This document shows positions 7,685 to 50,280 of a DNA stretch of 60,406 nt, piece by piece. The first letter of the stretch is position 1. The number at the start of each line of letters is the position of its first letter. The stretch is from positions 1 through 60,406 of the forward strand of contig JAPOTD010000027.1 of the NCBI GenBank assembly GCA_026709365.1, read 5' to 3'. A program made the position numbers and the translations under genes. The notes below the pieces were generated by a model that did not search any database, was not told the DNA's origin, and worked only from the letters and a program-made list of their open reading frames with translations. The stretch is from Gammaproteobacteria bacterium. Lineage in GTDB: Bacteria; Pseudomonadota; Gammaproteobacteria; Pseudomonadales; Azotimanducaceae.

Positions 7685-7931
7685 AGTCGGCGCCGAGTTG
7701 GGGATGCGGCCCTCCAATGGCAGCAACCCGGCGGATTCAGCACCAGCAATTCTCACTTTGGCCGGTGACCGTTTGGCCGTGAGGATGCCCTGACGCCGGA
7801 ACCGCCATGCGGAGCGCGAGTTCGAGGGCGGGACGCCCTGCGAGGGATCCCGCGCCGGATAAGGGCATCCTGTCCTCGATTAGGCAACGGGGGGCGGACT
7901 TGATCCACAATGAGAACCGCTGGATTCAGCA

Positions 7932-8192
7932 ACATGCCTCTAAACCAGCTTCAGCCAACGAAGTTGGGCGGAGTTGCCCGGTTCATTTCGAGGGAGGGAC
8001 GCCCTCCGTAGGCTGTCGCCCGAACCCAGCGGACTCCCGGAGCGAGGGCGTCCCGCCCTCCGTAGGTTGTCGCCCGAACCCAGCGGACTCCCGGAGCGAG
8101 GGCGTCCCGCCCTCGACTGGAAGCCCACCGGGACAACGCAGCGGGTTTGCACACCCACTTAAGTATCGGCTGAAGCATGTTTACAGGCATGT
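7932..8192 (+). mobile_element. Family B MITE-like element, copy B1
   Basis: A non-coding 261-bp element. The left end starts ACATGCCTCTAAACCAGC and runs to TCAGCC; the right end ends GCATGTTTACAGGCATGT, forming inverted repeats of about 25 bp. It is flanked by a perfect 6-bp duplication TCAGCA (7926-7931 and 8193-8198). The interior has GAGGGCG/CGCCCTC palindromes and an internal 69-bp tandem duplication (about 7998-8135) that makes it longer than B2. No transposase is encoded, so mobilisation would need one in trans. Confidence 0.8.
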
Positions 8193-8231
8193 TCAGCAAA
8201 CACCGCACCGCCCTGAAGCGTCCGCCGCCGC

Positions 8232-8237
8232 TATACT
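8232..8237 (+). promoter_or_regulatory. Candidate -10 box, likely leaderless start of the MFS gene
   Basis: TATACT ends only six bases before the ATG at 8244, so transcription would begin at or next to the start codon. No Shine-Dalgarno sequence is present. The -35 is weak. Confidence 0.45.
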
Positions 8238-8243
8238 CGCCAA

Positions 8244-9422
8244 ATGCAGCGCACCAACCTGACCCTCTACTTCCTGGCGCAAGTGATCTTCGTCTCCGGA
8301 TCGGTGCTCATCGTGACCTTGGGCGGCATCGTCGGCAGCGAGATGGCGCCGCACCCGTCGCTGGCCACCCTGCCGCCGTCGTTGATGGTGGTCGGCACGG
8401 CCTTGGCGACGGTGCCGGCGGCGCTGCTGATGCAGCGCATCGGACGCCGCTACGGCTTCGCGGGCGGCGCCGTGCTCGCCGCAGTCGGCGCCCTGCTGGC
8501 CGTCCTGGGCTTGGAGATCAAAAGCTTCGCGCTGTTCACGGCGGCGGTCGGGCTGATCGGCGCCACCCTCGCGTTCAGCGCCCAATTCCGCTTTGCCGCC
8601 GCCGAAAGCGTGGCGCCGGAGAAGGCCGGCTGGGCCATATCCATCATCCTGCTCGGCTCCATCGGCGGCGCCGTCATCGGGCCGGAACTGGCGACCCGCA
8701 GCCCGGGCTGGATTCAGGGCCAGCCCTACCAAGGGGCGCTGCTGGCGATGACCGGCCTCTACGCGCTCGCCGCGGCCCTCCTGCTGCTCACCCGCAACCC
8801 TGCCCCGGCAAGCGATGCGGCAAATCGCGAGCCGGGACGTCCGCTCCTTGAGATTGCCGCCCAGCCTGCCTTCGCGGTGGCCGTTCTGGCTGGGGTGATC
8901 GGACAGGGCGTGATGATCTTCATCATGACGGCCACCCCGATCAGCATGCATGTGGTGGACGGCCACAGCATCGAAGACACCGCCCGGGTGATCCAGGCGC
9001 ACGTGGTGGCCATGTACCTGCCATCGCTGGCTTCCGCGCCCCTGATCCAGCGCTTCGGGGCCTACAAGCTGATGACCGCCGGCGCCGCCGCCCTAAGCGC
9101 AACGGTGGCGGTCGGTCTGGCCGGCCACGAACTGATGCACTACTGGTGGGCGCTGGTGCTGCTGGGCGTCGGCTGGAACTTTCTCTTCGTCGGCGGCACC
9201 ACCGCGCTGGTGGCAGCCTACCGACCGGCGGAGAGGTTCCGCGCCCAAGCGCTCAACGACTTCAGCATTTTCGGCGCATCAGCCCTAGCCAGCCTCATGG
9301 CGGGCGCCCTGCTGCACGGCTTCGGCTGGTCCGCCGTGCTGCTCTCCACCCTGCCCGCCCTAGGGCTGATGCTGCTTGCGGTCATCTACGTTCAAGTCGT
9401 TGGGCGTCAAGGCGCGACCTGA
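8244..9422 (+). CDS. MFS transporter
   Basis: A 392-aa polytopic inner-membrane protein with about 12 hydrophobic segments in two bundles. The loop 2-3 motif appears as QRIGRRYGFAGG (about residues 55-66), typical of MFS carriers, and a central cytoplasmic linker (NPAPASDAANREPGRP) lies near 180-195. Substrate unknown. It is a single-gene unit, preceded by element B1 and ending inside a family A hairpin (the last codons form GCGACC/GGTCGC). Confidence 0.8.
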   Translation: MQRTNLTLYFLAQVIFVSGSVLIVTLGGIVGSEMAPHPSLATLPPSLMVVGTALATVPAALLMQRIGRRYGFAGGAVLAAVGALLAVLGLEIKSFALFTAAVGLIGATLAFSAQFRFAAAESVAPEKAGWAISIILLGSIGGAVIGPELATRSPGWIQGQPYQGALLAMTGLYALAAALLLLTRNPAPASDAANREPGRPLLEIAAQPAFAVAVLAGVIGQGVMIFIMTATPISMHVVDGHSIEDTARVIQAHVVAMYLPSLASAPLIQRFGAYKLMTAGAAALSATVAVGLAGHELMHYWWALVLLGVGWNFLFVGGTTALVAAYRPAERFRAQALNDFSIFGASALASLMAGALLHGFGWSAVLLSTLPALGLMLLAVIYVQVVGRQGAT

Positions 9423-9478
9423 CGGTCGCGGCGGACCTTTGGTCCGCTTAGGTCAGATTCCGAACTGCTTCTGAGCCG
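9414..9478 (+). repeat. Family A double-hairpin repeat, copy A0
   Basis: Two consecutive stem-loops, GCGACC-TGAC-GGTCGC (9414-9429, overlapping the MFS stop) and GCGGACC-TTT-GGTCCGC (9431-9447). They are followed by the conserved tail AGGTCAGATTCCGAACTGCT then TGAGCC. The stem sequences differ from other copies while pairing is preserved. It could also act as a transcription terminator for the MFS gene. Confidence 0.6.
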
Positions 9479-9567
9479 GCGCAGGCGCGATGCGCGGTGC
9501 GGGAGGCAATCCTTAAGCACATTCAACGACCTGATCCGCGCCTGAAACGCCAAGGCGATCGCCGCCT

Positions 9568-10368
9568 TCAGGCTGCGGCACTGATGACATACCGGGAGCG
9601 GAGGCGCTGGCGGGCCGCCCCGTCGAGGCCGATGGCCTGCTCAAGGTAATGCTCCACGCCTGCAAACTCCGTGGCGATGGCGTCATAGGCGGCGCGCAGG
9701 TACTCCGGGCGGACGCCGAACAGCGCCATGGTGGATTCCCGGTCGGCTTCAAGGTCGGTCCACAGCCGGGAGCGGATGCGCTTGTGCACATAGCCTTCGT
9801 AGTCGAGCGCCTCGTTGGTCAGCAGGTAGTCCTCAAGCACCGTGGCTTCGTTTACGCCCAAGGCATGCAGAATGAGGGCGCAGGCGAACCCGGTGCGGTC
9901 CTTGCCCGCCGAGCAGTGGACCAGAAAGGCGCCGTCCTCAAGCGCGAGCAGCCGCTCGAACATCCGGGCGTAGTCCTCGGCGTGGTTGCTGGCCAAGTCC
10001 CGGTTGATGCCGACCATGAAGTCGATGCGCTCCTGCAAGGTCAAGCCGCCTTCGTTGAGCCGCTCGCGCATGGCCACCGCACTGCCGGGATCGATGGGAA
10101 CTTCCAAGCGGCCAGACGCGCCAACCAGGTCCGGGGTGGGCTCGGCGGCCTTCTCATCCGCACGGCGCAGGTCGCAGATCAGCTTGACGCCCAACTTGGC
10201 AAAGGCCCGCTGACCGGCTTGGGTCAGGTCCGCCAAGGTGCCGCAGCGAAACAGCTGCCCGGAGGCCACCCGGCCCCCGTCCTCCGTGGCATAGCCCCCG
10301 AAGTCGCGAAGGTTTACCGCGCCCTCGAAGCGCAGGATGCGCGGCTGCGGGGAGGCGTCAGCGCTCAC
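9568..10368 (-). CDS. Tyrosine/serine protein phosphatase (DSP-like, PF13350)
   Basis: A 266-aa protein with the Cys-based phosphatase loop HCSAGKDRTG (about residues 151-160, matching HCxxGKDRTG of bacterial PTPs such as LipA/MptpB). Its N-terminal NLRDFGGYATEDG motif is characteristic of the family, and the general-acid region is likely around DLRRADEK. It would dephosphorylate proteins or phosphoinositides. Its ATG overlaps the stop of the FAD oxidoreductase gene (ATGA), so the two are co-translated. Confidence 0.85.
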   Translation of the reverse strand: MSADASPQPRILRFEGAVNLRDFGGYATEDGGRVASGQLFRCGTLADLTQAGQRAFAKLGVKLICDLRRADEKAAEPTPDLVGASGRLEVPIDPGSAVAMRERLNEGGLTLQERIDFMVGINRDLASNHAEDYARMFERLLALEDGAFLVHCSAGKDRTGFACALILHALGVNEATVLEDYLLTNEALDYEGYVHKRIRSRLWTDLEADRESTMALFGVRPEYLRAAYDAIATEFAGVEHYLEQAIGLDGAARQRLRSRYVISAAA

Positions 10369-11693
10369 AAGCCCGGCCCCGGCCGCATCGCCGAGCCGTC
10401 GCTGAAACGCGAGAAGCGGAACCGCGTCAGGTCGTGGGGCGGTGGCCGACCCACCACCAGTTCCGCCATCACCCGCCCGGCGCCCGGGCCAATGCCAAAG
10501 CCATGCCCGCTGAAGCCGGTGGCGATGAAAAGCCCGGGATGGCTGGGGGCTTCATCCATGACCGGCACCACATCCGGCGTCACGTCAATCATGCCCGCCC
10601 AAGCCTCTTCGATGGGACAGTCCGCCAAGGCCGGCAGCCGAGCGTTTACGCGAACGCGAATCTGCTTCAAGGCGGCTTGGGAAGGCGCCGGATTGAGCAC
10701 CCGAACGCGCTCAAAGGGGCTTTCGCCGTCGTCCTGCCAGCTCTGCGGGACCATGCGGCCCAACATGCCGCCAAAGCGCAGGCGAACGTAACGCAGGCTG
10801 GCGGCCAAGCTCGGCAGAAACTTGAGGAAGTGGCGAAATGAGTCCAGCCCAATCAAATGCTCGTTGACGTTGGCGGAGGCCAGCGTGTAGCCGCCATCCT
10901 GACGGCGGCGGAAAGCGACATCCGGCGCCGCGGCATTGCCCGCATAGACGTCCGGCGCCGATGCGGTGCGGGCCACGGTGGCGCGCACGGTCAGTTGCGG
11001 CAGGTTGATGCCCATGTGGCGCAGCAGCAGCGAGGTCCAGGCACCGCCTGCGCACACCGCCGCTGAGGCCCGCACCGGCCCGCGCTCGGTGATGACGCCG
11101 GCCACGCGGCCCGCCTCAAGTTCGATGCCGCGCACGGCGCAGCTCTCGATGATGCGTCCGCCTTGGCGTTGCACGCCCCGGGCCAGCGCGGCAACGGCCA
11201 CGAACGGTTCGGCTCGGGCATCGCTGGGGGTGTGCAGGGCGCCGACGTATTGGCCGGGCGGGCCGTCGATCAACTCATCCACTTCGGCGGCGGACAGCAA
11301 GCGGGTGTCCAATTGATGCTGTTGCGCCACATCCAGCCACTCGGCGTGGCCCGCCAGTTGCCGCTCCGTTTCCGCAAGATAGGCGACGCCCCGACGGACG
11401 AAGCCAAGGTCTTCGCCCAATTCGCCGGCCAGCCCCTCCCAGATGTTCTGGCTGTCGATGACGATGGGCAGCTCGTCCGGATCCCGGCACTGCTTGCGGA
11501 TCCAGCCCCAATTGCGGCTTGACTGCTCCCCCGCCACCCGGCCCTTCTCGCAGACCAGGACGCGCAGACCCCGTTTGACGAGAAACCAAGCCGTGGAAAC
11601 GCCGATGACGCCGCCGCCAATGATGACGGCATCGACCGCATCGGGCAGTTCGTCCTGGAACGAGATGGGGCTCCGGTCGCTATGGATCGCCAA
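10365..11693 (-). CDS. FAD-dependent oxidoreductase (DAO family, glycine oxidase/sarcosine oxidase-like)
   Basis: A 442-aa flavoprotein with an N-terminal Rossmann FAD motif VIIGGGVIGVSTAW (about residues 23-36) and a C-terminal ATGFSGHGFGIGPGAGRVMAE block that contacts flavin in the DAO fold. CEKGRVAGEQSSRNWGW near residues 48-64 is typical of amine-oxidising DAO members. Probably oxidises an amine or N-methyl amino acid. It precedes the phosphatase in a two-gene operon. The exact substrate is unknown. Confidence 0.8.
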   Translation of the reverse strand: MAIHSDRSPISFQDELPDAVDAVIIGGGVIGVSTAWFLVKRGLRVLVCEKGRVAGEQSSRNWGWIRKQCRDPDELPIVIDSQNIWEGLAGELGEDLGFVRRGVAYLAETERQLAGHAEWLDVAQQHQLDTRLLSAAEVDELIDGPPGQYVGALHTPSDARAEPFVAVAALARGVQRQGGRIIESCAVRGIELEAGRVAGVITERGPVRASAAVCAGGAWTSLLLRHMGINLPQLTVRATVARTASAPDVYAGNAAAPDVAFRRRQDGGYTLASANVNEHLIGLDSFRHFLKFLPSLAASLRYVRLRFGGMLGRMVPQSWQDDGESPFERVRVLNPAPSQAALKQIRVRVNARLPALADCPIEEAWAGMIDVTPDVVPVMDEAPSHPGLFIATGFSGHGFGIGPGAGRVMAELVVGRPPPHDLTRFRFSRFSDGSAMRPGPGL

Positions 11694-11696
11694 GGA

Positions 11697-12155
11697 TTAG
11701 CCCTTGCGCCCGGCAGCCACCGACTCATCGGCCCGGGGCATCGACTTGTTCGCGTTCTGGAACCGAAGGCGCTCCGGGACGGAGAAGAACCCTCTGGACT
11801 TGCGGGCCTCGGCACAGTCCGCCTTCATCAGGCAACTGTATCCCGAAAGCACTGGGAGCATGGCAAAGGCGGCAATGAGCTGACCTAGCGAGGACAGATG
11901 GACCGCATACCATTCATCGCCAAGGCTAGGGGCCATTTGGAAGAACCCGGCGAAGAAGAACAGCATGCAGCCGGTGGCGCAAACCGCCAGGATGCGGGCC
12001 GGCCAATGCGCGACCCTCCTCGCCAAAGTGATGAAGGCAAGCAAGGCGCCGAAGCAGTACATGCCAATGAGAGCGTGGGGACGCGCCGGCACGCCGAGAT
12101 GCAGCAAGGCCAGCAGTATCAGGCCGACGCCAATCGCTCCGTTGAGGCACTTCAT
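11697..12155 (-). CDS. Four-helix membrane protein of unknown function
   Basis: A 152-aa protein with hydrophobic segments near residues 6-22, 28-45, 52-73 and 85-105, followed by a hydrophilic C-terminal tail (MKADCAEARKSRGFF...). It ends 3 bp before the FAD oxidoreductase start, so it could be the first gene of that operon. No family is recognised. Confidence 0.55.
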   Translation of the reverse strand: MKCLNGAIGVGLILLALLHLGVPARPHALIGMYCFGALLAFITLARRVAHWPARILAVCATGCMLFFFAGFFQMAPSLGDEWYAVHLSSLGQLIAAFAMLPVLSGYSCLMKADCAEARKSRGFFSVPERLRFQNANKSMPRADESVAAGRKG

Positions 12156-12386
12156 CTCTGCATCGTCCGATCAGTCTCCACTGGTGTTGGTGCTCGGCCT
12201 GCCAACTCCCCGCTTAGGGCCACTTGCGGGAAACACGGGCATATAGGTAACGAATAGTCATGGAAGGACGGGCCTAGGTCAATAGATTCATCGTCAAAGC
12301 GGTCGATCGTTACCGATGGTTACGGCGACGGAGGTTTGCGATGCGGGGCCAACCCGTTCAGCCGCGCTTACCCGGCCCCGGCAAGT

Positions 12387-12941
12387 TCAAACCTCCCAGC
12401 CCGGCAAGCCCTCCTCCCCCTGCACGCCAAAGGCGTTGAGCGCCATCGAGACTAGGTTGTACTGGCCGACGGTGAACACCGCATCCATTAACTGCTGCGT
12501 GTTGAGGTGCCGGGCGAGCCCAGCCCAGGTCGCATCGCTGACATGGGCGTCATCATGCAACTCCTCGGCGGCCTGGAAAAGCAGCCGGTCGAGATCGGAC
12601 AGGCCCGGGGTGGCCGAGCCGGTTTGGCAAGCGCGGATTTCCGCATCCGTCATGCCCGCCTGCCGGGCGATGAGCACGTGCTGGCCCCACTCGTAGCCCG
12701 ACTGGCACAGATGGCCGATGCGCAGAATCAGCAGTTCGCGTTCCCGAACCGGCAGCGTGGACTTGCCTAGAATGTGGTTGGCAAACACCATCCAGCGCCG
12801 CATCAGCTGCGGATGCTGAGCCAGGGTGCGCATGATGTTCAGGTTGCGCGCGCTCTCGGCCATGGAGGCCGTGAATTCCTGGGCCTCCGCGCTCTGCCGC
12901 TCCGGTTCAAGGGGTTCGATTCGGGGTTGGTTAAGCCGCAT
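12387..12941 (-). CDS. Carboxymuconolactone decarboxylase family protein
   Basis: A 184-aa alpha-helical protein with the CMD hallmark ELLILRIGHLCQSGYEWGQH (about residues 69-88), where Glu, Cys and His are the usual functional positions. Family members act on lactones or as peroxidase-like proteins and often accompany aromatic or steroid catabolic genes. It lies downstream of the P450 gene with a 126-bp gap on the same strand, so it may be part of the oxygenase unit. Confidence 0.8.
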   Translation of the reverse strand: MRLNQPRIEPLEPERQSAEAQEFTASMAESARNLNIMRTLAQHPQLMRRWMVFANHILGKSTLPVRERELLILRIGHLCQSGYEWGQHVLIARQAGMTDAEIRACQTGSATPGLSDLDRLLFQAAEELHDDAHVSDATWAGLARHLNTQQLMDAVFTVGQYNLVSMALNAFGVQGEEGLPGWEV

Positions 12942-13067
12942 CAGCTAGGCTCTCCGATTGGTTTTCCTGATCGCGGGACATCGCCGGACAAGGTTTCCAC
13001 CCGACCCGACTTGTGCACTCGGCGCCATGCGCCCCGCGCCGCCAAGGCGGCGCATCTTCCTGTTGGT

Positions 13068-14381
13068 CTATCGGAGCCGACGGCGCCGTCGGTAGCAAAT
13101 CGGCAAGGTCGGCAGATTGCGGAGAATGAAGCTCGGCTCCGCCTCGGGGTTTGCGCCATCGGCGAGACGGAAGTCCTCGAACCGATCCAGCAGCGCCGCA
13201 AAGCCCAGGTTCAACTCCTGCCGCGCCAAGGGCGCGCCGATGCAGTGATGCACGCCGGAGCCGAAGGCGAGCTGCATGCCGGCCTTCCTGCGGTCGATGC
13301 GCACTTGATCCGGATCCTCAAACTGCCGTTCGTCGCGGTTGGCGGCGCCGAAGCGGAGCATGATGAGGCTGCCGGCGGCCAGCGGCACCCCGCCGAGTTC
13401 AGTGTCCCGCTTCACCAGCCGAGGCAGGCCCTGCACCGGCGCCTCCATGCGCAGGGCCTCTTCAACAAAGGTGCGAATGCGCCCGGCATCGCCGCGTATC
13501 TCGGCCTGCAGGCCTGGGTTGCGGCACAGCAGCAGCATGCCCCAACCGAAGGCGCTCGAGGTGGTTTCGTGGCCCGCCACCAGAAATTGGTTGAGCACGC
13601 TCAAGGTCTCGCCGTGGGTCAGCAGCCGGTCCTCATCCTCCAATCGGCTGTTGGCAAGAATGGTGATCATGTCGTCGGTCGGCTCCCGGCGCCGAGCCTC
13701 CACAAGGGCAACCAGCAAGTTCTGCAGGTCCAGCGCCAGTTGCGCCCGGTGCAGCATCTGCTCCGGCGTGAGCGGCGACAGCCGCAGCCCCCCAGCCGCC
13801 GCGGTGGCCGCTTCGTCAAAGAACCCCCGCTCCGCAGCGGGTATGCCCAAGCGGTCGGCGATGATGCGCAGCGGCACCGGGAAGGCAAATGCGGACATAA
13901 AGTCCGTGGACATGCCGTCCGCCCCCGATTCCGCATCGGAACCCGATGTGGCAGCCATGGTCTCAACGTAGCGCTCAACCACCTCCCGCACGGTCGGCTC
14001 GCTCTTGCGAACCTCCGAGCCGGTGAACAACTGGGCAACCAAGGACCGATACTTGGTGTGCGCAGGCTCATCCAGGGTCAGCATGGTCGGCGGCAGCGGG
14101 ATCATCTCCTTGTTCAGTTCGATGAGCTTGCGCTGCACGTCCGCCGGCGCCTGCTGAAAGAGGATCTTTCTGGCCCCGTCGAGAAAGTCCCCGAACTCGC
14201 TGGAGTAGGTGGCGGTGTCGCGAATCGCCTCCCGAATCAGGTCGTAGCGGGTGACGATGTAGGCGCCGAAGTTGGGTTCAAAGTGGACCGGCGCTTGGTC
14301 GCGCAGGGTCTTGTAGGCCGCATAGGGATCAATCAGCGTGTCGTGGTCGAACAGCGAAACATCGGGCTGCGGCTGGCTCAT
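13068..14381 (-). CDS. Cytochrome P450 monooxygenase
   Basis: A 437-aa soluble bacterial class P450. It has the I-helix AGHETTSS (oxygen activation, Thr pair), the K-helix ExxR in EEALRMEAP and the heme loop FGSGVHHCIGAPLAR with the thiolate Cys380. The ATG at 14381 overlaps the Rieske oxygenase stop (ATGA), favoured over an upstream in-frame ATG at 14402. It would hydroxylate a hydrophobic substrate with electrons from a ferredoxin; a [2Fe-2S] ferredoxin gene occurs at 35619 but no ferredoxin reductase is nearby. Confidence 0.9.
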   Translation of the reverse strand: MSQPQPDVSLFDHDTLIDPYAAYKTLRDQAPVHFEPNFGAYIVTRYDLIREAIRDTATYSSEFGDFLDGARKILFQQAPADVQRKLIELNKEMIPLPPTMLTLDEPAHTKYRSLVAQLFTGSEVRKSEPTVREVVERYVETMAATSGSDAESGADGMSTDFMSAFAFPVPLRIIADRLGIPAAERGFFDEAATAAAGGLRLSPLTPEQMLHRAQLALDLQNLLVALVEARRREPTDDMITILANSRLEDEDRLLTHGETLSVLNQFLVAGHETTSSAFGWGMLLLCRNPGLQAEIRGDAGRIRTFVEEALRMEAPVQGLPRLVKRDTELGGVPLAAGSLIMLRFGAANRDERQFEDPDQVRIDRRKAGMQLAFGSGVHHCIGAPLARQELNLGFAALLDRFEDFRLADGANPEAEPSFILRNLPTLPICYRRRRRLR

Positions 14382-15724: not shown

Positions 15725-15773
15725 GGCATGATCCTCGAAGTTCTGGGTTGGTCCACTGACGAAAGCTGGCGCC

Positions 15774-15986: not shown

Positions 15987-16227
15987 GCCGTTCGACTCGC
16001 TTGGTTCCTTCAACGGGCCAATCATAGCGCAGAATGCCGCGCATCCCACCGCCATCACTGCCGTCACGCATCCCGCAGCGGCGGCGGACCTCCGGTCGGT
16101 TGGATGTTCGCTGGCGCGAAATCCCGCACCTGTTGCCTGGGTCCGGTTGCGATGGGTTTCTTCAAGCCGCGCGGATGGCGCACAATGCTTCTTGGTTAAG
16201 CGTTCAGGCACTTGGGGGCAATCGCAA

Positions 16228-17964: not shown

Positions 17965-17985
17965 TCGACGCGTTCGCGGACCGTC

Positions 17986-26279: not shown

Positions 26280-26385
26280 GTTCGAACCCGGCTTGCTCGA
26301 ACCGAAGGGCCGCGATGGCTTGCAGGCCACGCTTTCGAGGCTTGGTGGATGGCGCCTTCGGGCACCACCCCTTGTCAATCAAGAA

Positions 26386-26571
26386 ACATGCCTATAAACG
26401 AGCATCAGCCGACGGAGTTTGGCGGAGTCCCCGGTTCATTTCGAGGGCGGGACGCCCTCCGTGGATCGTTGCCCGAACCAAACGGACTTCCGGAGCGAGG
26501 GCGTCCCACCCTCGATTGTCGGTCCGCAGGGACAACGCAGCCGGTTGGCTGAAGCATGTTTACAGGCATGT
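26386..26571 (+). mobile_element. Family B MITE-like element, copy B2
   Basis: A non-coding 186-bp element; the left end is ACATGCCTATAAACGAGC... to TCAGCC, and the right end is GGCTGAAGCATGTTTACAGG then CATGT. It is flanked by a perfect 6-bp duplication CAAGAA (26380-26385 and 26572-26577). The interior has GAGGGCGGGACGCCCTC and GAGGGCGTCCC. This is the shortest and cleanest copy and best defines the element. Confidence 0.85.
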
Positions 26572-26623
26572 CAAGAAATCCCGGAGGCTGGGAATAGGGC
26601 TAACAGCAACAGGAAAAGCGGGT

Positions 26624-27256: not shown

Positions 27257-27883
27257 TTGCTCACCATCGGCCTGACTGGCGGCATCGCCTCCGGGAAATC
27301 CACTGCGGCGCGTCATTTGGGCAAGCTTGGCGCCCATGTGATCGATGCCGATCGCTTGGGGCACCGCGCCTACGAGCCTGGCACCGCAGCGTTCAAGCAG
27401 GTGGCCGATGCCTTCGGCGACGCCGTGGTGGCCGCCGACGGCACCATCGACCGCCGTGCGCTCGGCAGCAAGGTGTTCGGCCAGCCAAGTGAACTGAAGA
27501 AGCTCACCGACATCGTGTGGCCGGAAATTCGCCGCCTGGCCGACTTGGAAATCGAAGCCCGACGGGCGCTGCGACCAGACGGGGTGGTGGTGCTGGAGGC
27601 CGCTGTCATGGTCGAGGCCGGATGGCAGCACAGCTTGTACGAGGTTTGGGTGGTGGCCGTCGAGCCGGAAGTCGCGATCGAACGGGCCATGGCGCGCGAC
27701 GGCCTCACTGCCGAAGAGGTGCGCTCAAGGCTTGCGGCCCAAACCAGCAATGCGGAACGCCGACGCCATGCGGATGTGGTGATCGACAATTCGGCCGGGC
27801 TTGATGAACTGCGCGCCGAGCTTGATCGGCAATGGAAGCGCGTGGCTGGCGCACAGGGCGCCCGGACAGTGGCCGCCTCATGA
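27257..27883 (+). CDS. coaE: Dephospho-CoA kinase
   Basis: A 208-aa P-loop kinase. LTIGLTGGIASGKST is the Walker A (residues 2-16), with DADRLGHRAY, RRALGSKVF, and VVLEAAVMVEAGWQ typical of CoaE. It phosphorylates dephospho-CoA at the ribose 3' position in the last CoA step. The start is a TTG at 27257, since no ATG precedes the P loop. The stop overlaps the start of the first PHP repeat copy by ATGA. An uncommon neighbour set for coaE. Confidence 0.9.
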   Translation: MLTIGLTGGIASGKSTAARHLGKLGAHVIDADRLGHRAYEPGTAAFKQVADAFGDAVVAADGTIDRRALGSKVFGQPSELKKLTDIVWPEIRRLADLEIEARRALRPDGVVVLEAAVMVEAGWQHSLYEVWVVAVEPEVAIERAMARDGLTAEEVRSRLAAQTSNAERRRHADVVIDNSAGLDELRAELDRQWKRVAGAQGARTVAAS

Positions 27884-28110
27884 TCCTCGACCTCCATGCC
27901 CATTCCGTTGTCTCGGATGATGGGCGGGCTAAAGTGCCCGCGCACGATTGATGGGGCTACTGCCATGATCCTCGACCTCCATACCCATTCCGTTGTCTCG
28001 GACGACGGGCGGGCTAAAGTGCCCGCGTACAGTTGATGGGGCTACTGCCATGATCCTTGACCTCCACACCCATTCCGTTGTCTCAGATGACGGGCGGGCT
28101 AAAGTGCCCA
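27880..28110 (+). repeat. 85-bp tandem triplication covering the PHP gene start
   Basis: Three copies start at ATGs 27880, 27965 and 28050 (period 85). Each begins ATGATCCTYGACCTCCAYRC and continues to about GGGCGGGCTAAAGTGCCC. Copies 1 and 2 read MILDLHAHSVVSDDGRAKVP (or HTHS) then stop after three more residues (PAHD-stop, PAYS-stop). Copy 3 continues into the real gene. Because 85 is not a multiple of 3 the duplications do not extend the protein. The unit also contains ATGGGGCTACTGCCATGA, giving overlapping stop-start signals between copies. Confidence 0.9.
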
Positions 28111-28685
28111 ACTACTGCCAGTGGATTCGCGCCCGGGAGCTGCCCATCGAAGGCTTCGTGCTGACCGAGCACCGTCAGTTCGACTTCGCATCCGACTACA
28201 GCGCCTTGGCTCGCCAGTTCGGGCTGACCATCCTCAAGGCCAGCGAAGTGGAGACCGAATACGGCCACGTGCTGGTCTTCGGCGTCACAGAGACCTTGAC
28301 CCAGGCATTCGATTTCGCCGACATTCACCTGCCGCTCGCCCAAGTGATCGAGGAGTCCGAACGTCACGGCGCGGTGCCAGTGCCCTGCCACCCCGGACGC
28401 AAGCGCGTGGGCATGGCGGCGCACATCGACGCACTCGGCGTGCCCGAAGGGGTGCGCATCGTCGAGGTCTTCAACGGCGGCAGCCGCGGCGAGGAGGACC
28501 GAATCGCCGCCGCCATGGCCGACGAGCAGAACTACCGGGGCATCGGCGGCAGCGACGCCCACATCGTCAGCCACATAGGGCGCTGCGCCACCCGTTTTGA
28601 CGGCGCGGTGGGCAGCGAGGGCGAACTGGCCGAAGCGCTGCGCGGCGGCGATTTCGAAGCCTTGAGTTACCGGGAGCAGGCATGA
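28050..28685 (+). CDS. PHP-domain phosphoesterase
   Basis: A 211-aa PHP-domain protein. Metal-binding motif 1 MILDLHTHSVVSDDG, then EGFVLTEHRQF, ASEVETEYGHVLVFG, CHPGRKRVG and the final GSDAHIVSHIG give the usual His/Asp/Glu metal ligands. The family includes histidinol phosphatase, polymerase-associated and RNase AM-like phosphoesterases; the substrate is unknown. The true start is the third repeat copy ATG. It is coupled at its 3' end to the next hot-dog gene (ATGA). Confidence 0.85.
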   Translation: MILDLHTHSVVSDDGRAKVPNYCQWIRARELPIEGFVLTEHRQFDFASDYSALARQFGLTILKASEVETEYGHVLVFGVTETLTQAFDFADIHLPLAQVIEESERHGAVPVPCHPGRKRVGMAAHIDALGVPEGVRIVEVFNGGSRGEEDRIAAAMADEQNYRGIGGSDAHIVSHIGRCATRFDGAVGSEGELAEALRGGDFEALSYREQA

Positions 28686-31967: not shown

Positions 31968-32165
31968 TCCTTAGTTTTTCTGGGGATTAAAGAAGCTGGG
32001 CGCGGTCCCCGGCTCGCTTCAAGGGCCGCAAGCCACTCTCGCTCCGGGAGTCCGCTCGCTCCGGGCGACAACCCAAGGGCGTCCCGCCCTCGACTGGAAA
32101 TCCGCAGGGACAACGCAACGGCTTTGCGCGCCCGCTCGGCATCGGCTGAAGCCTGTTCATGGACA
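31968..32165. repeat. Degraded family B element, copy B3
   Basis: Interior family B sequence survives, for example GGTCCCCGG near 32007 and GCGTCCCGCCCTCGACTGG near 32080. The right end ATCGGCTGAAGCCTGTTCAT then GGACATC is a decayed terminal repeat (32140-32165). The left end is unrecognisable, so it is truncated. The decayed right end lies beside the CoA transferase stop codon (32166-32168). Confidence 0.55.
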
Positions 32166-33356
32166 TCAGCCAGCGGAAATCACCGCGCCCGCATCCACAA
32201 GCGAGCGAATCTCCGCTGCGGAGTAGCCCAAGCTGCGCAGCACCGGCTCGGAATGCTCTCCCAGAACCGGCGCGGGCGCCTCCACATCCGCCGGCGTGTC
32301 CTCGAAACGGGCCGCTGGCCGGGCCAAGCGGACTTGGCCATAGCCGTCGAAGTCGTAGATGCCCACGGTGTCGTTGGCCATGATCTGCTCATGGTCCAGC
32401 AAATCCAGTCGGGTCAGCAGGGGTGCGGAGGGCACGCCCTCGGCATCCAGGCGGGCGAGAATGTCGTCCCGGTCCCAGTGCTTGAGCGCATCAGCCGTCA
32501 TCGCCTTGCGCTCGCCGGCATTGCGAAAGCGGGCCGATGTGGTGGCGAAGCGGGGGTCATCGATCCAGTCGGCCTTGCGCAAGGCAGCGCACAACCCGCG
32601 CCATTCCTTGTCGCTGACGGCCCCGGCGGTGATGTAGCCGTTTTTGGTCTCGTAGATCAGGTCCATGGTGCCTTGGTACTGGGTCACGTCCACCTCATCG
32701 CCCACGTAAACCAGCCCGCCCATGCCCTCCGGCCAGAAGAAGGCGATCATCGTGTCCAGCATGGAGATGCGGATGTGCTGGCCTTGGCCGCGCTTTTCGC
32801 GGGCATAGAGGGCCGAGGAGACGGCGTGGGCGGCGGTGACCGCCGTCACTTTGTCGGCGATGATGATGCGAAACATGCGCGGCCGCTTAGTTTCGCGGTC
32901 GGCTTGGATGTCGGTGGCCCCTGAGAGCGCCTGGATCACCGGGTCGTACACCCGTTGATGGGCGTAGGGGCCCTGCTCCCCGAAGCCGCTGATGGAGACG
33001 TAGATGAGCCGCGGATTGGCGCTGCGCATGGCTTTGGCGCCCAGTCCCAAGCGATCCATCGCGCCGGGGCGGAAGTTCTGCAGCAGCACGTCGGCCGAGG
33101 CGATCAGCGCCTGCACCGGCGCCAGGGCCTGCGGATTCTTCAGATCGACGCACAGCGAGCGCTTGCCCCGGTTGCAGGCAAAGAAGCCCGGCGGCAAGCC
33201 GTTGCGGCCCGTGCTGATGCGCCGCATCTCATCGCCGGCGGGAGACTCCACCTTGATGACCTCGGCACCTTGGTCGGCCAGCATGGCCGCCGCCACCGGA
33301 CCCGACACCATGGTGGTGAAGTCCACCACCCGCACGCCTTCAAGCGGGCCAGCCAT
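32166..33356 (-). CDS. Family III (CaiB/BaiF) CoA transferase
   Basis: A 396-aa protein beginning MAGPLEGVRVVDFTTMVSG, the standard N-terminal motif of family III enzymes. NRGKRSLCVDLKNP (about residues 61-75) and SGFGEQGPYAHQRVYDPVIQA follow; the Asp in VYDPV is the expected covalent catalytic residue. It transfers CoA between carboxylates. The start at 33356 is preferred; an upstream in-frame ATG starts in an unrelated stretch. The last codons end at the decayed B3 element. Confidence 0.85.
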   Translation of the reverse strand: MAGPLEGVRVVDFTTMVSGPVAAAMLADQGAEVIKVESPAGDEMRRISTGRNGLPPGFFACNRGKRSLCVDLKNPQALAPVQALIASADVLLQNFRPGAMDRLGLGAKAMRSANPRLIYVSISGFGEQGPYAHQRVYDPVIQALSGATDIQADRETKRPRMFRIIIADKVTAVTAAHAVSSALYAREKRGQGQHIRISMLDTMIAFFWPEGMGGLVYVGDEVDVTQYQGTMDLIYETKNGYITAGAVSDKEWRGLCAALRKADWIDDPRFATTSARFRNAGERKAMTADALKHWDRDDILARLDAEGVPSAPLLTRLDLLDHEQIMANDTVGIYDFDGYGQVRLARPAARFEDTPADVEAPAPVLGEHSEPVLRSLGYSAAEIRSLVDAGAVISAG

Positions 33357-41544: not shown

Positions 41545-42273
41545 ATGGCAAAGCAAGGTTCGCAAGGCAAGTCCCGCCGAAGCAGGCAAAGCGCCCAGGA
41601 GCGGCGGATCAGCCACCTGCGCCGAGGCATCGTCATCGGCATCGGCTTCGTCGTCTTCGGCGTGACGATCGGGGGCCTGCTGTACAGCACCGGATCGGTG
41701 GACAGCGATGACATCGTCGAGGGCGAACACTACGAGGTGGTGGCGGATGCCCCCCGGCGCCGTCCCGGCGCCCCGGTCACCGTCACCGAGTTCTTCTCCT
41801 ACGGCTGCGTCCACTGCCGAACCTTCGATCCGCTGATCGAGGACTGGCGCAGGGATCTAAGCGAGGGCGCGGCCTTCGAGCGGGTGCCCGTGGCGTTTTC
41901 GCCCGAGTGGGCCATCCTCGGCCAAGCCTATCTGGCCCTGGAACGGGCGGGGGCGCTGGCGCAGAACCACGAACGGCTGTTTCGCGCCATCCACGACAAC
42001 GGGCGGCAGTTTCTCAGCGCCAGCCAACTCGCCCGCTTCGTGGACGGGCACGGCATCAGCGGCCAGGACTTTTTGGCAGCCTACAACTCGCCTGAGGTGC
42101 GTCAGGTCCTGGCCCGCAACGAGGCGCGGCAGAGCCGCTTGGGCATCGCCTCGGTCCCCAGCCTCACCGTCGCCGACAAGTACCGTATCAACATGGATGT
42201 CGGCCGCCGCCAAGCATTGGAGGTGGCCGACCACTTAGTGGCGCTGGAGCAAGCCGACCCGAGGCCGGAGTGA
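41545..42273 (+). CDS. DsbA-family thiol:disulfide interchange protein
   Basis: A 242-aa membrane-anchored periplasmic protein. A transmembrane helix occupies about residues 27-48, then a thioredoxin-fold domain with FFSYGCVHCRTFD (active site CVHC, about residues 87-90) and the cis-Pro loop ASVPSLTV. The ATG has a GGAGG about 10 bases upstream. It converges on glnE with a 4-bp gap. Probably helps disulfide formation or cytochrome maturation; role of neighbour SNase fusion is unclear. Confidence 0.85.
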   Translation: MAKQGSQGKSRRSRQSAQERRISHLRRGIVIGIGFVVFGVTIGGLLYSTGSVDSDDIVEGEHYEVVADAPRRRPGAPVTVTEFFSYGCVHCRTFDPLIEDWRRDLSEGAAFERVPVAFSPEWAILGQAYLALERAGALAQNHERLFRAIHDNGRQFLSASQLARFVDGHGISGQDFLAAYNSPEVRQVLARNEARQSRLGIASVPSLTVADKYRINMDVGRRQALEVADHLVALEQADPRPE

Positions 42274-42277
42274 TCGG

Positions 42278-45229: not shown

Positions 45230-45312
45230 GGGCAGAACCCCTGCAATGACGGCTCAGCGGACGAGCGAATCAAGCTGCGGGACGGCGCATCCAAGTTGCG
45301 CAGCAACTTGAA

Positions 45313-45356
45313 CGCCTCCGCATGAGGGGTGGCCCGCCACCCCTCATGCGGAGGCG
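45313..45356. repeat. Perfect 20-bp palindrome overlapping the SDR stop
   Basis: CGCCTCCGCATGAGGGGTGG, loop CCCG, then its exact complement. Arm 2 includes the last codons and the TGA (45344-45346) of the minus-strand SDR gene. It lies between the SDR stop and glnE start. No run of T follows on the minus strand, so it is not a classical terminator; it could form a strong stem-loop in the mRNA. Confidence 0.7.
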
Positions 45357-46162
45357 CGTTCGGCGTAGCCCGGCGGGCGTTTGCCGTGCTCGTCGAGCAG
45401 GTCAAACTCCTCGCCCAAGTCCTCCACCCACTGAATGGTGCCGGTGCGCGACATCAGGTTGTCGCTGCCCAGCAGGGCGCAGACCGAGCGCCCGACGAAG
45501 AGCGGCGTCTGCGAGTTGGACAGGTCCATGCCCCGCTGGGCGGCGACATCGGCAATGAACTCCGTGGCCACCGAACCGGGATAGAGCGCCACCGCGGCGA
45601 CGCCCTTGGGCTTAAGTTCGATCGCCATATCGGCGGTCAGTCGGTCAAGCCCCGCCTTGCCGGTGCCGTAGGAGCAGGAGAAGTGGTACTTCTGGCCACC
45701 CGGGGAGGAGACGTTGACGATGGCGCCCCCCGGTCCGCCCTTGAACAGCAGTTCAGCCGCATGCCAACTGGCCACGTAATGGGCGCGCAGGCCAATGCCC
45801 ACTTGGTCGTCCCAGATTTGGATGGGGTGGTCCCAGAAGCCGCCTCCCCAGGCCGGCGGGTCGGGAATCTTGTAAACGTTGTTGATGAGATAGTCGATGC
45901 GGCCAGCCTCCTCGCCGATGCGCGCGAACAGGGCGCCAATGGCGGCATCGTCGCCGTGATCGCAGCGAATGGCGCGCCCCTCGCCGCCCGCCTCGCTCAC
46001 CATTCGGGCGGTGGTGTCGATGGTGCGGTCCCCTTCCCCGGTGGTGCGCCCGGTCACATAGACGATGGCGCCCTGCTCGCCCAAGGCCCGGGCGATGCCC
46101 TTGCCAATGCCCCGGCTCGCGCCGGTCACCACGGCCACCTTGCCTGCAATCGATGACGGCAT
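45344..46162 (-). CDS. SDR family oxidoreductase
   Basis: A 272-aa short-chain dehydrogenase with TGASRGIGKGIARALGEQG (about residues 14-32), the NNVY motif, SSPGGQKYHFSCSYGTGKAG (Ser, Tyr and Lys catalytic residues) and ALYPGSVATEF. The Arg of GRTTGEGD after strand 2 suggests NADP. Start at 46162 is the ATG before MPSSIAGK; an upstream longer frame has no support. It ends in the palindrome described above. Confidence 0.85.
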   Translation of the reverse strand: MPSSIAGKVAVVTGASRGIGKGIARALGEQGAIVYVTGRTTGEGDRTIDTTARMVSEAGGEGRAIRCDHGDDAAIGALFARIGEEAGRIDYLINNVYKIPDPPAWGGGFWDHPIQIWDDQVGIGLRAHYVASWHAAELLFKGGPGGAIVNVSSPGGQKYHFSCSYGTGKAGLDRLTADMAIELKPKGVAAVALYPGSVATEFIADVAAQRGMDLSNSQTPLFVGRSVCALLGSDNLMSRTGTIQWVEDLGEEFDLLDEHGKRPPGYAERASA

Positions 46163-46228
46163 GGGATCAGTCTCCTTGATTGGATTCAAAGCCGCTAACT
46201 TAGCAAGCATGGCGAGTCGGGAACAAGC

Positions 46229-46322
46229 GCCTCTCGCCCAGAGGGCGAGAGGCGGTTGGAGTTTCGCCACGCGAAACTGCGCGCTCGCCGCGTAGGTCAG
46301 ATTCGAGATGTTTGTGAGCCAG
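46229..46322 (+). repeat. Family A double-hairpin repeat, copy A5
   Basis: Hairpins GCCTCTCGCCC-AGA-GGGCGAGAGGC (46229-46253) and AGTTTCGC-CAC-GCGAAACT (46260-46278), then the tail GCGTAGGTCAGATTCGAGAT and TGAGCC. The stem of the first hairpin differs completely from other copies, while pairing is kept. Confidence 0.75.
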
Positions 46323-46437
46323 CGCGCCATCGACCGCTCGCTGCAATCCGTGGCGGTTCCCCAGCAAAAAGGATTTGCATCCTGCCAAAGCACCCGCGAC
46401 AGCCGACACCAAAAGGGGGACAGCCCAATGAACGCCA

Positions 46438-46467
46438 TTGACAATGCGCTTAAACTCCCATTAGCAT
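46438..46467 (+). promoter_or_regulatory. Candidate sigma70 promoter for the PIN-toxin operon
   Basis: TTGACA (46438-46443) and TAGCAT (46462-46467) are separated by 18 bp, about 45 bp upstream of the ATG at 46511. Confidence 0.45.
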
Positions 46468-46510
46468 GTTGAACAAAGATACTTGGAATACCAAAAACAA
46501 GGATACTGAT

Positions 46511-46996
46511 ATGCCATCAACCCATATAAAAGTCGCCGATGAAGTGTGGCTTGCCACGGCAGCCCTGCACCTAGAGCATCCAAACCAAATGGATTTCTCC
46601 ATTGGCGAAATCATGGCCAAAGTTGAGAAGGAGTCCGCAACGGGCAAGCCCCTCAGACCGGGCGTTCGGGTGCATGTGCATTTGCATTGCGTTGCCAACA
46701 AGGCGCCGAACCCTGGTCGATATCGGATGCTGTACGAATCCGCACCGGGTCGAAGGCGCCTGTTTCGACCGGGCGACCCCTGCCATCCGCAGCGGTTAAC
46801 CGGCAAAGAAGTCCCCACCCGGGACGCGCTTCCGGCGCAGTACCGCAGCTTGGTCGATTGGTACTGTCAGCAGTACGCCAGTGCGAACGGCCAAACCACC
46901 GATCCGGTTCTGGCCCTGCGCGGCCTTGGCAAGGAAATCTGGGCCAACGAGGATGCCGACGCCTATATCCGCCGCCAACGGGCCGACTGGCAATGA
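46511..46996 (+). CDS. Putative antitoxin-like protein upstream of a PIN toxin
   Basis: A 161-aa protein with HIKVADEVWLATAALHLEHP (a winged-helix-like N-terminal segment), RPGVRVHVHLHCVANKAPNP and RMLYE...GRRRLFRPGD blocks resembling DUF7669-type restriction/defence-linked domains. The start at 46511 has an AAGGA about 8 bases upstream; an earlier ATG at 46466 is possible. It overlaps the PIN gene by ATGA, so it is probably its partner. The start region is lower in GC, suggesting transfer. The function is inferred from neighbourhood only. Confidence 0.6.
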   Translation: MPSTHIKVADEVWLATAALHLEHPNQMDFSIGEIMAKVEKESATGKPLRPGVRVHVHLHCVANKAPNPGRYRMLYESAPGRRRLFRPGDPCHPQRLTGKEVPTRDALPAQYRSLVDWYCQQYASANGQTTDPVLALRGLGKEIWANEDADAYIRRQRADWQ

Positions 46997-47415
46997 GCCG
47001 CATATTCTGGGACACGAACCTGTTTGTGTACCTGTTCGAGGACAAGGGTGAGCTCACCGAGCGGGTCGTGACGTTGCGTGAGCGGATGATCGAACGCAGT
47101 GACGAGTTGTTCACTTCCGCGCTTGCCCTCGGCGAAATTCTGGTTCGGCCTGTTGAGGCAGCGGACAATTCCTTGGCTCGCCGATATGAGCAGGCGATTC
47201 TAACTGCCGCAACCGTGCTGCCCTTCGACCAAGGCGCAGCATTGGCGTTCGCAAGAGTCCGCCAAGACCGATCAATCAAGCCGCCCGATGCCATCCAACT
47301 CGCCTGCGCTTCCGCTGCCGGCGTGGATCTGTTCATCACCAACGATGCGCGGCTCAGCCGCAAGGTCGTGCCGGGAATTCACTTCATTCAACCACTCGCC
47401 AACGCGGCGCTTTAA
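46993..47415 (+). CDS. PIN-domain toxin (VapC-like ribonuclease)
   Basis: A 140-aa PIN protein: FWDTNLFVYLFE (first catalytic Asp near residue 7), SALALGEILVRP (Glu), PPDAIQLACASAAGVDLFITNDARL (second Asp pair). Complete PIN core, Mg-dependent RNase predicted. It is coupled to the upstream gene by ATGA. Unlike the relic at 27 kb this copy is intact, with a different type of partner. Confidence 0.85.
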   Translation: MSRIFWDTNLFVYLFEDKGELTERVVTLRERMIERSDELFTSALALGEILVRPVEAADNSLARRYEQAILTAATVLPFDQGAALAFARVRQDRSIKPPDAIQLACASAAGVDLFITNDARLSRKVVPGIHFIQPLANAAL

Positions 47416-47417
47416 GT

Positions 47418-47434
47418 CAAGAGGAACTCTCCGG
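47418..47434. repeat. 17-bp direct repeat, left copy
   Basis: CAAGAGGAACTCTCCGG, identical to 50287-50303. The two copies bracket the secreted modular protein gene and element B4. Confidence 0.7.
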
Positions 47435-47529
47435 CAGAGACCCGGCCCGGTCCCGCCTTGCGCTCGGCTCCGTTGCAGGGACGGCCAGGCGCGGCGGGCT
47501 TCAGGTCCGGACGCCGCCCAGCCTAGCCG

Positions 47530-49986
47530 TCAGCGAAGCTCCGCCGGGGCCAGCGCGTCGCCCGCTGACTCGATGAGGCCGCCCGGCGCGACCAAGTAGG
47601 GCAGCACCTCGATGTCCAGCCCGCTGGACACCTCCAGCCGCCAGTCGCCCACGCCCGGCCCCGCGCTGCCGGCAAGGCCCTTGGCCGCGTTGCCCAGCTC
47701 CAGGTCCCAGGCGTCCAGGCTCGCCGAACCGCCCGCGCCCAGCGTCAGCGTCAGCGGCGGGTAGGCGTTGCCCAAGGCGTCATGGGGCACGATGCGCACC
47801 GTGCCGCCGCGCGGCGAGTGGTTGACGATGCGCAGCAGGCCGTGGCGACCCGACCCGCCCACCGCGGACGGGAACCAGGCCACCTGCCGCGCCCCGGCCC
47901 CCGCCGGCGCCGCCGCGTCCAGGGCGCTCCGCGCGCCGTCGGCGCCGAGCTCATGGGCGCCCACCTCAAGGTCCAGCCCGCTGGACAGCTCAAGGCGCCA
48001 GTCCCCCGCGCCCGGCCCGGCAGCGCCGTCAAGGCCCTTGAACCGGTTGCCCCGCTCAAGGTCCTGCGAACTGAGCGAGACGGACGCGCCCGCCTCCATG
48101 TCGAGCGTCAGGCCCCCCCGGCGCCAGCCGCCGTCGTCGATGGCCGTGATGCGTACCTGGCCCGCCTGGGGGCTGAGGTTCGAGAGCGTCAACACCCCCG
48201 GGGCCGGGCTGGACGCGCCCGGCACCAGCGGCACGTGCGCCTGGGTGCCGGAGGCCCGCGCCTCAAGGCACCTGAGCGCCTCAACCACCGGATCCCAGCG
48301 GCTCCAGCCCCGGTCGGCGTAGGTCTGCGCTTCGGCGGCCGTCATCGGCTCCTGGCCGTTGTCCTCGCCGAAGGCGGCGAGCACCTGCAGCCAGCGGCCC
48401 ACGTGCGCTTGGCCCTCGTGGGTCTCCTGGGAGTAGCCGGACACGTCGGAGCGAAGGTCGTCCGAGACGCAGGGCGCGGGCTCCGGCTCAGGTTCGGGTT
48501 CCGGCTCAGGCTCCGGTTCCGGTGTTTGCAAGGCTTCGAGTTTGGTCAGCAGGTCGGCGACGGTATCCCAACGGATCCAGCCCCGGTCGGCATAGGTCTG
48601 CGCTTCGGCGGCGGTCATTGGCGTGTGGCCGTTGTCCTCACCGAGGGCTGCCAGCACCCGCAGCCAGCGGTCAACATGCGTCTGGCCATTTTCGGTCTCG
48701 GCCGCGTAGCCCCTGATGATATCAATGGTAAGGGGAGTGTCAGTTGATTGCTCCGGGGCGGGGTCGCTTGACTCCTCCTCCGAACGCTGTGGCTGGGGTG
48801 CGTCGTCATCGATCACCTTGACCTTGGCCATGGCTGCCGCGCCAACCGTGTAGCCGGAACCGGGCGTCACCGTGGCCTCAACGACCTCTTCGTACCTGTC
48901 GTACACGCCCGACTCGTCCCTGTCGTTGTCCACCGTGGGGACGGTGAAGGTCGCCGTGCCGCTGGTGTCGATGATCACCGTGCGCAGGCCCCGCGCGCTC
49001 GGTTCGGTGATGGTGTTCGACCGGCTGGCCTGCTCGGATACCGCCACCGAAACCGACACCGCCGCGGCGGGGGCGGGCGTGGCCGTCAGGGTGAAAGTCG
49101 CAGCGCCGCCCTCCACAACCGCATCGCCGCCCGAGACGGTGATCGAAGGCTTTTGCGGCGATGGCGAGGGTGGGTTTGCGGCATCCCTGGCGCACTCCTC
49201 AAGCGCCTCGAGCTCCCGACGCAGCGGGGGCCAGCCGCCCCAGCGGCCATACCGATCCCTCACCTCGCTGGTCCAGGCCTCGGCCGCGGTGTATGGCTCG
49301 AGCGTTTCGTGGGTTTCCGCACCGAAGGCGATCAGTATGCGAAGCCAGGCATCGCCGTAGTTCAGGAGGTTGCCCTCGTGGTAGCCGCGGACCCGCTGCA
49401 CGAGGTCCGCCGAGGTCGCGTCGCAGGTGGCTGGCGCATCGTTGTCCCTGACCAGCCCCCAAGTGTATGGTCCGTAGTACCTCGCGCCAAAGGGTTCCGC
49501 ACTGGCACCAAGGCGAAAAGGGCTTCCGCTGACCCACCTCGGCGTAAACTCGATCCAGGCGCCGTCCTCGTCCTCATTGTCATCAATGGTGGGAACGCTC
49601 ACGATAACCGAGCGCGTGTTGGCCGGAATGGTGGCCGTGATCAGTTGTCCGCGCCAGGAGTTGGAGTCAAGGACCCTTCCCCTCCCCCGCGTGTCATCCT
49701 GCAGCCGTATCGACACTTCAAGATCCTGCGGATGCAGTGCTCCCCGAATGCGAAGGGAGAACTCCATATTCTCGCCCTCGGTGACATAGGCCACGGGAGC
49801 GACCTCGATTACCGGGAGCGTTTGGGCGGCAGCCCGGGGCGCGAAATCCGCCAGCAGCGGCGCAAGGAGCAGCATCGCGGCGACGAAACCGCGGCGGAGA
49901 AGCCGCGGACCGCCGGGGCCGGCCGCGATGAAGGATGAAGAATGGTCAAACCGAGGGGAATCGCCGCTGTGAACACCGTTCATCAT
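47530..49986 (-). CDS. Large secreted modular protein with Calx-beta-like and repeated helical modules
   Basis: An 818-aa exported protein. Signal peptide about residues 27-55 (LLRRGFVAAMLLLAPLLADF ... AAAQ). Two Calx-beta-like domains follow (about 60-185 and 275-380). Three copies of a 60-70 aa module with GY....GQ.HV.RWLxVLAAxGED and TAAEAQTYADRGWxRWDPV occur at about 190-265, 430-500 and 525-590, then a Pro-Glu linker. Two C-terminal beta repeats of about 90 aa (GDWRLELSSGLDLEVGA and GDWRLEVSSGLDIEVLP) close it. Likely cell-surface or released; role unknown. The gene is flanked by 17-bp direct repeats. Confidence 0.75.
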   Translation of the reverse strand: MMNGVHSGDSPRFDHSSSFIAAGPGGPRLLRRGFVAAMLLLAPLLADFAPRAAAQTLPVIEVAPVAYVTEGENMEFSLRIRGALHPQDLEVSIRLQDDTRGRGRVLDSNSWRGQLITATIPANTRSVIVSVPTIDDNEDEDGAWIEFTPRWVSGSPFRLGASAEPFGARYYGPYTWGLVRDNDAPATCDATSADLVQRVRGYHEGNLLNYGDAWLRILIAFGAETHETLEPYTAAEAWTSEVRDRYGRWGGWPPLRRELEALEECARDAANPPSPSPQKPSITVSGGDAVVEGGAATFTLTATPAPAAAVSVSVAVSEQASRSNTITEPSARGLRTVIIDTSGTATFTVPTVDNDRDESGVYDRYEEVVEATVTPGSGYTVGAAAMAKVKVIDDDAPQPQRSEEESSDPAPEQSTDTPLTIDIIRGYAAETENGQTHVDRWLRVLAALGEDNGHTPMTAAEAQTYADRGWIRWDTVADLLTKLEALQTPEPEPEPEPEPEPEPAPCVSDDLRSDVSGYSQETHEGQAHVGRWLQVLAAFGEDNGQEPMTAAEAQTYADRGWSRWDPVVEALRCLEARASGTQAHVPLVPGASSPAPGVLTLSNLSPQAGQVRITAIDDGGWRRGGLTLDMEAGASVSLSSQDLERGNRFKGLDGAAGPGAGDWRLELSSGLDLEVGAHELGADGARSALDAAAPAGAGARQVAWFPSAVGGSGRHGLLRIVNHSPRGGTVRIVPHDALGNAYPPLTLTLGAGGSASLDAWDLELGNAAKGLAGSAGPGVGDWRLEVSSGLDIEVLPYLVAPGGLIESAGDALAPAELR

Positions 49987-50071
49987 TGCTCCTTGATTTC
50001 ATCTATGCGCGCTCGGCGCGTTGGCATCAGCGGCATCCTATTCGAAACTCGCCGAAGGGCACAATGCGGAT

Positions 50072-50280
50072 TCATGCCGATAAACATGCTTCAGCCGACC
50101 CTGAGTGGGTGTGCAAACCCGCTGCGTTGTCCCTGCGGATTTCCAATCGAGGGCGGGACGCCCTCGCTCCGGGAATCCGCTTGGTTCGGGCAACGACCCA
50201 CGGAGCAAGCGCGTCCCGCCCTCGAAATGAACCGGGGACGCCGCCAAACTTTGTCGGCTGAAGCTCGCTTATAGGCATGT
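50072..50280 (-). mobile_element. Family B MITE-like element, copy B4
   Basis: A 209-bp element in reverse orientation relative to B1 and B2. The left end TCATGCCGATAAACATGCTT and right end GGCTGAAGCTCGCTTATAGG then CATGT are the inverted ends. The interior has the same GGGTGTGCAAACCCGCTGCG segment as B1. The flanks show no 6-bp duplication, so it may have moved or decayed at its ends. Confidence 0.75.

Follow-up and report, generated by a model that had tools for sequence, protein, structure and literature searches.

What kind of element are the short repeats that recur along a 60,406-nucleotide stretch (the window) of contig JAPOTD010000027.1, from a gammaproteobacterium of the family Azotimanducaceae? 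Four of them, B1 to B4, make up what we call family B, and we examined them against further copies in the host genome (G000, in which the window belongs to contig C130), against the congeneric sister species G002 and against the other members of a nine-genome set of the genus. An earlier reading made from the letters alone (the sequence-only reading) had taken them for non-coding miniature inverted-repeat transposable elements (MITEs) mobilised in trans. Since every two-ended B copy in hand contains the core of a repetitive extragenic palindromic (REP) sequence, and since this REP family is linked to a REP-associated tyrosine transposase (RAYT), we conclude that family B is very probably a MITE vehicle, which inserts with an 8-bp target duplication and has a REP doublet (REPIN) as its cargo.

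Family B elements are flanked by 8-bp target duplications

Elements of family B, defined here as running from CATGCC to GGCATG, are bounded by 24-bp inverted repeats, CATGCCTNTAAACNNGCTTCAGCC. Inverted ends had been ascribed to all four window copies; B1, B2 and B4 do have them in common (about 24-25 bp), whereas no left end is recognisable in B3. At up to three mismatches the end pattern occurs six times in the window, compared to none in 100 shuffles, and 66 times in the host genome, compared to none for the reversed pattern. As had been anticipated, the family recurs when B2 is used as the query, with at least 64 matches in the whole host genome (40 of 156 candidate places scored). Ends less than 400 bp apart were paired in the loci in hand, which gave 25 two-ended copies of 150-354 bp; pairings over a longer distance were left out, as were lone ends and copies truncated at the end of a contig. 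Their pairwise identity averages 83% (range 65-96%), so that the family is not the product of a single recent burst. The view that the copies encode nothing is supported by the lack of a Pfam match for two open reading frames (ORFs), of which one overlaps B2 and the other B4, the ORFs overlapping B1 lying outside this test.

The target duplication is exactly 8 bp long, being perfect in 9 of the 25 copies, with at most one mismatch in 15 and at most two in 19. When the left flank of one copy was compared with the right flank of another (n = 600), no perfect match and only two matches with one mismatch were obtained; a 9-bp flank match was seen in none of the 25 copies. At locus L003 the base just outside CATGCC is a G and the right flank carries the same G, which supports a length of 8. 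The sequence-only reading was therefore right that B1 and B2 lie between duplicated targets, but the 6-bp length that it gave is ruled out by the exact 8-bp matches, and the outermost A/T that it counted as element belongs to the target (TTCAGCAA at B1, TCAAGAAA at B2).

Over 20 bp, the 15 best sites have an AT content of 58%, against 35% in the loci. Pooling of strands gave the target pattern AA-TTNNNNAA-TT, whose symmetry is partly built in by the pooling; unpooled, the same 15 sites have A just before the duplication in 10 cases and T just after it in 13, and the duplication starts with T in 10 and ends with A in 10. We propose that the transposase of a partner insertion sequence (IS) would recognise the 24-bp ends and insert the element at sites of this kind, giving rise to the 8-bp duplication. 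Such a transposase would presumably be of the DDE type and act in trans. Judging by the duplication, we take the moving unit in B to be the whole element. Inverted ends, duplications far above control, AT-rich targets and the nested copies described below together give good support to the earlier reading as MITEs mobilised in trans, the action in trans being the presumed part of it.

The interior of family B is REP sequence of a RAYT-linked family

The interior palindromes GAGGGCG/CGCCCTC had been recognised, but not that they are a REP sequence of a RAYT-type family, arranged mostly as an inverted pair. Nineteen of the 25 copies contain two cores, five contain one and a single copy, B1, contains three, its third REP being a 54-bp tandem step. 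The pairs sit centrally within long palindromes. In two B copies (L040 and L073) the pair has collapsed into one palindrome, which resembles a footprint of excision or slippage.

Among 38 genomes, the REP GGAGCGAGGGCGTCCCGCCCTCGA at up to two mismatches was found 93 times in G000, 171 in G002, 228 in G006, 19 in G007 and 40 in G008; the other 33, including G001, G003, G004 and G005, had none. It is thus dispersed in five of the nine genomes of the genus, and within the host genome it is found outside B as well. G002, G006 and G008 each have one gene of 215-216 aa with REPs alongside. These flank the gene on either side in G006 and G002 (in G002 the downstream one is degenerate); in G008, where the contig starts just upstream, the downstream side alone is visible and has a REP. 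All three proteins pass the curated cut-off of NF047646 (REP-associated tyrosine transposase), and the G008 protein shares 89% identity with that of G002 and 82% with that of G006. No Y1_Tnp match was found in G000 or G007, although both carry REPs, and a RAYT protein search covering ten genomes, G007 and G008 not among them, returned from G000 nothing better than 35% identity over 65 aa (E 1.3e-4).

Families C and X carry the same REP core

B1 adjoins an element with other ends, family X, and its duplication TTCAGCAA overlaps the X duplication ATTCAGCA by 7 bp. At up to one mismatch, 30 X ends (CAGCAATTCTCATT...) are present in G000, seven of which lie less than 40 bp from a B end; at several of these a single B end remains, and X ends free of B occur elsewhere in the host genome. 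A B element sits inside an X end at L015 (perfect duplication) and at L019 (one mismatch). A third kind of end, C (GTAGTGGCTCAGTTTGAC), occurs 97 times in G000 and bounds elements of about 177 bp, many of which likewise contain this REP core and have 8-bp duplications. Copies of the C end lie 24 bp apart, and a possible origin of family C is IS21.

With shifts of up to 2 bp allowed on either side, perfect 8-mer duplications flank 6 of 13 C copies (control 1/156), a sample biased to REP-bearing loci and with one locus entered twice through internal end copies, and 8 of 15 X copies (control 0/210), some of which contain a B. Of the copies in hand, 25/25 of B, 12/13 of C and 13/15 of X contain the REP core. 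Among 100 listed REPs of the 123 found in G000 at up to three mismatches, 75 have a B, C or X end no more than 250 bp away, the nearest being B for 35, C for 33 and X for 7, and 25 have none within that distance. REP-free 68-bp C-type elements are present in G006 and G092, indicating that C ends can exist without REP cargo. Of such 68-bp elements, L239 and L227 have flanking repeats of 8-9 bp and a third, L245, has no flanking repeat.

We typed 23 REP pairs of the host genome by their arms. Both arms were B in 10, both C in six and one of each in one (L205), while two pairs had one recognised arm and four had none; B arms were found twice in 10 pairs, once in two and not at all in 11. Judged by eye, most B pairs have a spacer like the one found in two free pairs (L075, L076), and the spacers of C pairs and of a few B copies differ. 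These data bear on the idea that B is an ordinary MITE, with interior palindromes that belong to it and look like REPs by coincidence only, an idea with which the core in every two-ended B copy agrees. It is made very improbable by the same REP lying outside B in the host genome and by the hundreds of REPs in G002 and G006 beside RAYT genes, G006 having no B ends at up to three mismatches; it would also need the free REPs to be remnants of B, and 11 of the 23 typed pairs have no B arm.

The occurrence of one REP core in C and X as well suggests, from the anatomy, that in this genome IS-type transposition can carry REPs along as passengers. We further put forward, as a tentative extension that may well not hold, that the REPIN has been freed from its own transposase and, after loss or silencing of the RAYT, persists as cargo and spreads with three or more unrelated IS-type MITE vehicles (B, C and X), swapping between them via recombination at the REP core. 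One possible vehicle hybrid for such swapping is in hand: at L205 (G000:C91:600-1200) the REP pair has a C arm on one side and the B right arm on the other, and the lack of a B end nearby marks it as a hybrid or the remnant of one.

B ends in other genomes and the partner transposase

At up to three mismatches, 37 of 145 genomes (the host included) match the B end pattern. Outside G000 and G002, matches number one or two per genome, have two or three mismatches and are at the level of a control pattern, and those in G008, G067 and G084, inspected by sequence, look like chance. The sole set of B ends besides that of the host is in G002, with eight matches, one of which is common to G008 and chance-like. 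At up to one mismatch, 369 genomes of the class gave the host genome only. The exact pattern was found in only three contigs of at least 3 kb of GTDB 220, all of them, judging by length, those of G002, in a search from which near records may be missing. B2 had no match in plasmids and phages, nor the end pattern in IMG/VR.

The IS with the same ends that the sequence-only reading had called for did not appear: at 11 single B ends of the host genome no transposase was seen by eye, with ORFs listed at three of them and short of a whole-genome survey. These ends look like fragments, contig-end cuts or X-fused copies, and the ORFs beside L061, L062 and L064, judged by eye without a family scan, resemble ordinary genes. 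The transposase families searched were PF01609 and PF01797. PF01609 has three matches in the host genome, and none of the three loci contains a B-like end at fewer than six mismatches, other DDE transposase families not having been searched. The host DDE_Tnp_1 genes were thus rejected as B partners. Two of them (L133 and L134) lie between inverted repeats starting CAGCAATTCCCGCC, like family X, and are possible partners of that family.

In G002, two contigs, C87 and C178, break off after the first 55 bp of a left end, which is the same in both and has no REP, and a third, C219, breaks off 53 bp inside a right end. The ends of C178 and C219 have the same 8 bp outside them, TTCCTGAT, as would be expected of one insertion of a longer, multi-copy element that was left unassembled. 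Such ends with no adjoining REP also speak against the proposal that a RAYT alone moves the whole of B, its outer repeats being palindromes that REP dimers have entered, as in Anabaena variabilis and Halothiobacillus neapolitanus. In favour of that proposal are the central position of the REP pairs in long palindromes and the existence of such cases (PMC3733652). Against it, the 8-bp duplications bracket the whole element, outer ends included, in different targets. Single-strand transposition of the IS200/RAYT type is not known to leave a target duplication, and we consider movement by a RAYT alone improbable.

Several points weigh against family B as a MITE vehicle with REPIN cargo, in addition to the bias of the C sample. 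A partner transposase with B ends was recovered in no genome; the longer G002 element is known from contig ends only, and its interior is absent from the G002 assembly. The reading frame left open when the C178 and C219 flanks are joined is weak evidence, since it is not the only open one and on one side extends no more than 11 codons past the junction. Six of the 25 B copies, B4 included, have no recognisable duplication (more than two mismatches). C ends paired by their ends alone in G000 contain a listed REP in 24 of 33 cases and none in 9, with three places counted twice. Y1_Tnp matches were found in 22 of the 38 genomes, among them G003 and 18 outside the genus without the GGAGCGAGGGCGTCCCGCCCTCGA REP. 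Finally, the mobility of B is read from sequence, and the host genome is a draft (3.7 Mb in 144 contigs, 95.7% complete).

Covariation does not support a selected RNA role

The sequence-only reading had also suggested that the interior hairpins might act on transcripts. RNA-acting repeats (terminators, RNase III or stability elements) kept for a function in the transcript would suit the position of the window copies, which fall outside flanking ORFs with Pfam matches, and the strong fold of B2. This one copy folds over its whole length (RNA -103.2 kcal/mol, z -7.85; DNA z -5.68), a strength that its long inverted repeat gives it. In an alignment of 21 copies (19 from the host, two from G002), a double change was seen in 5 of 48 predicted pairs and the covariation term was unfavourable (+0.58). 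Covariation thus gives no support for a selected RNA role, and Rfam at gathering scores had no match in the window. As the distribution and duplications are of the mobile-DNA type, we regard maintenance for an RNA function as extremely improbable.

Features of the window

The coordinates of the elements are collected in Table 1. Two further repeats were seen in the window. Three copies of an 85-bp unit lie in tandem at 27879-28133, at the start of a PHP-domain ORF, with 74-93% identity to the first copy, and a dispersed palindrome, GTTTCGC...GCGAAAC, forms a separate repeat family (5910, 23312, 23402 and 24396).

Table 1. Elements of families B, X and C, with their target duplications and REPs (window positions unless a contig is given).
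Feature	Position	Strand	Remarks
Family X element	7744..7922		Ends CAGCAATTCTCA...; one REP core; adjoins B1; 8-bp duplication ATTCAGCA at 7735-7742 and 7924-7931
B1 left target duplication	7925..7932		TTCAGCAA; 7-bp overlap with family X right duplication (7924-7931)
B1	7933..8191	+	259 bp; CATGCC...GGCATG; REP cores: three, with a step of 54 bp between two direct copies
REP in B1	8039..8062	+	Two mismatches to GGAGCGAGGGCGTCCCGCCCTCGA
REP in B1	8093..8116	+	Perfect
B1 right target duplication	8192..8199		TTCAGCAA
B2 left target duplication	26379..26386		TCAAGAAA
B2	26387..26570	+	184 bp; two REP cores; end-to-end fold
REP in B2	26492..26515	+	One mismatch
B2 right target duplication	26571..26578		TCAAGAAA
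B3	31990..32167	+	Decayed: REP remnant, right arm, degenerate right end; limits by eye
B4	50073..50279	-	207 bp; both ends present; no duplication, flanks differ at 4 of 8 positions
REP in B4	50147..50170	-	Perfect
Inverted partner REP in B4	50202..50225	+	Two mismatches
Family C sites outside the window	G000 C10, C49, C130:73371-73547 and others		

Comparison with known systems

Bacterial MITEs such as RUP, NEMIS, Nezha, MITEPsy1 and MITEAba12, as covered in part of PMC3733652, are like B in being small and non-coding, with inverted ends and no transposase of their own. Unlike them, B copies contain a REP doublet that belongs to a RAYT system, and a single core is shared by three types of end in one genome. 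MITEPsy1 duplicates 4 nt (PMC3189936, in excerpt), compared to 8 bp for B. A MITE of Porphyromonas gingivalis likewise has a second kind of repeat inside it, which according to the excerpted text of PMC4596501 is a minisatellite, whereas in B it is a REP.

B resembles the REPINs and RAYTs of PMC3116915 (in extract) in its inverted REP pair, in a palindrome headed GGAG or GGAC and in the RAYT beside REPs in sister species. It differs in that arms and ends surround the pair and an 8-bp duplication flanks the whole, and in that the search of the window's genome found no RAYT. REPINs are described in the same extract as tied to a single-copy RAYT, and the 75 of 100 listed REPs at IS-type vehicles offer a natural case for asking whether REPs persist without one. 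GTAG-15 of A. variabilis and CGTC-1 of H. neapolitanus are REP dimers which, like that of B, occupy the centre of a longer palindrome that is conserved; section 7 of PMC3733652 speaks of neither a transposase nor a target duplication in connection with the outer palindrome, whereas B has a duplication.

Among the open-licence papers listed by our searches, at the level of titles and the openings of abstracts, we found no description of REPINs carried in MITEs with duplications. Family B shows two unrelated non-autonomous elements in one body, and its exact ends and duplications allow the exchange of vehicles to be traced.

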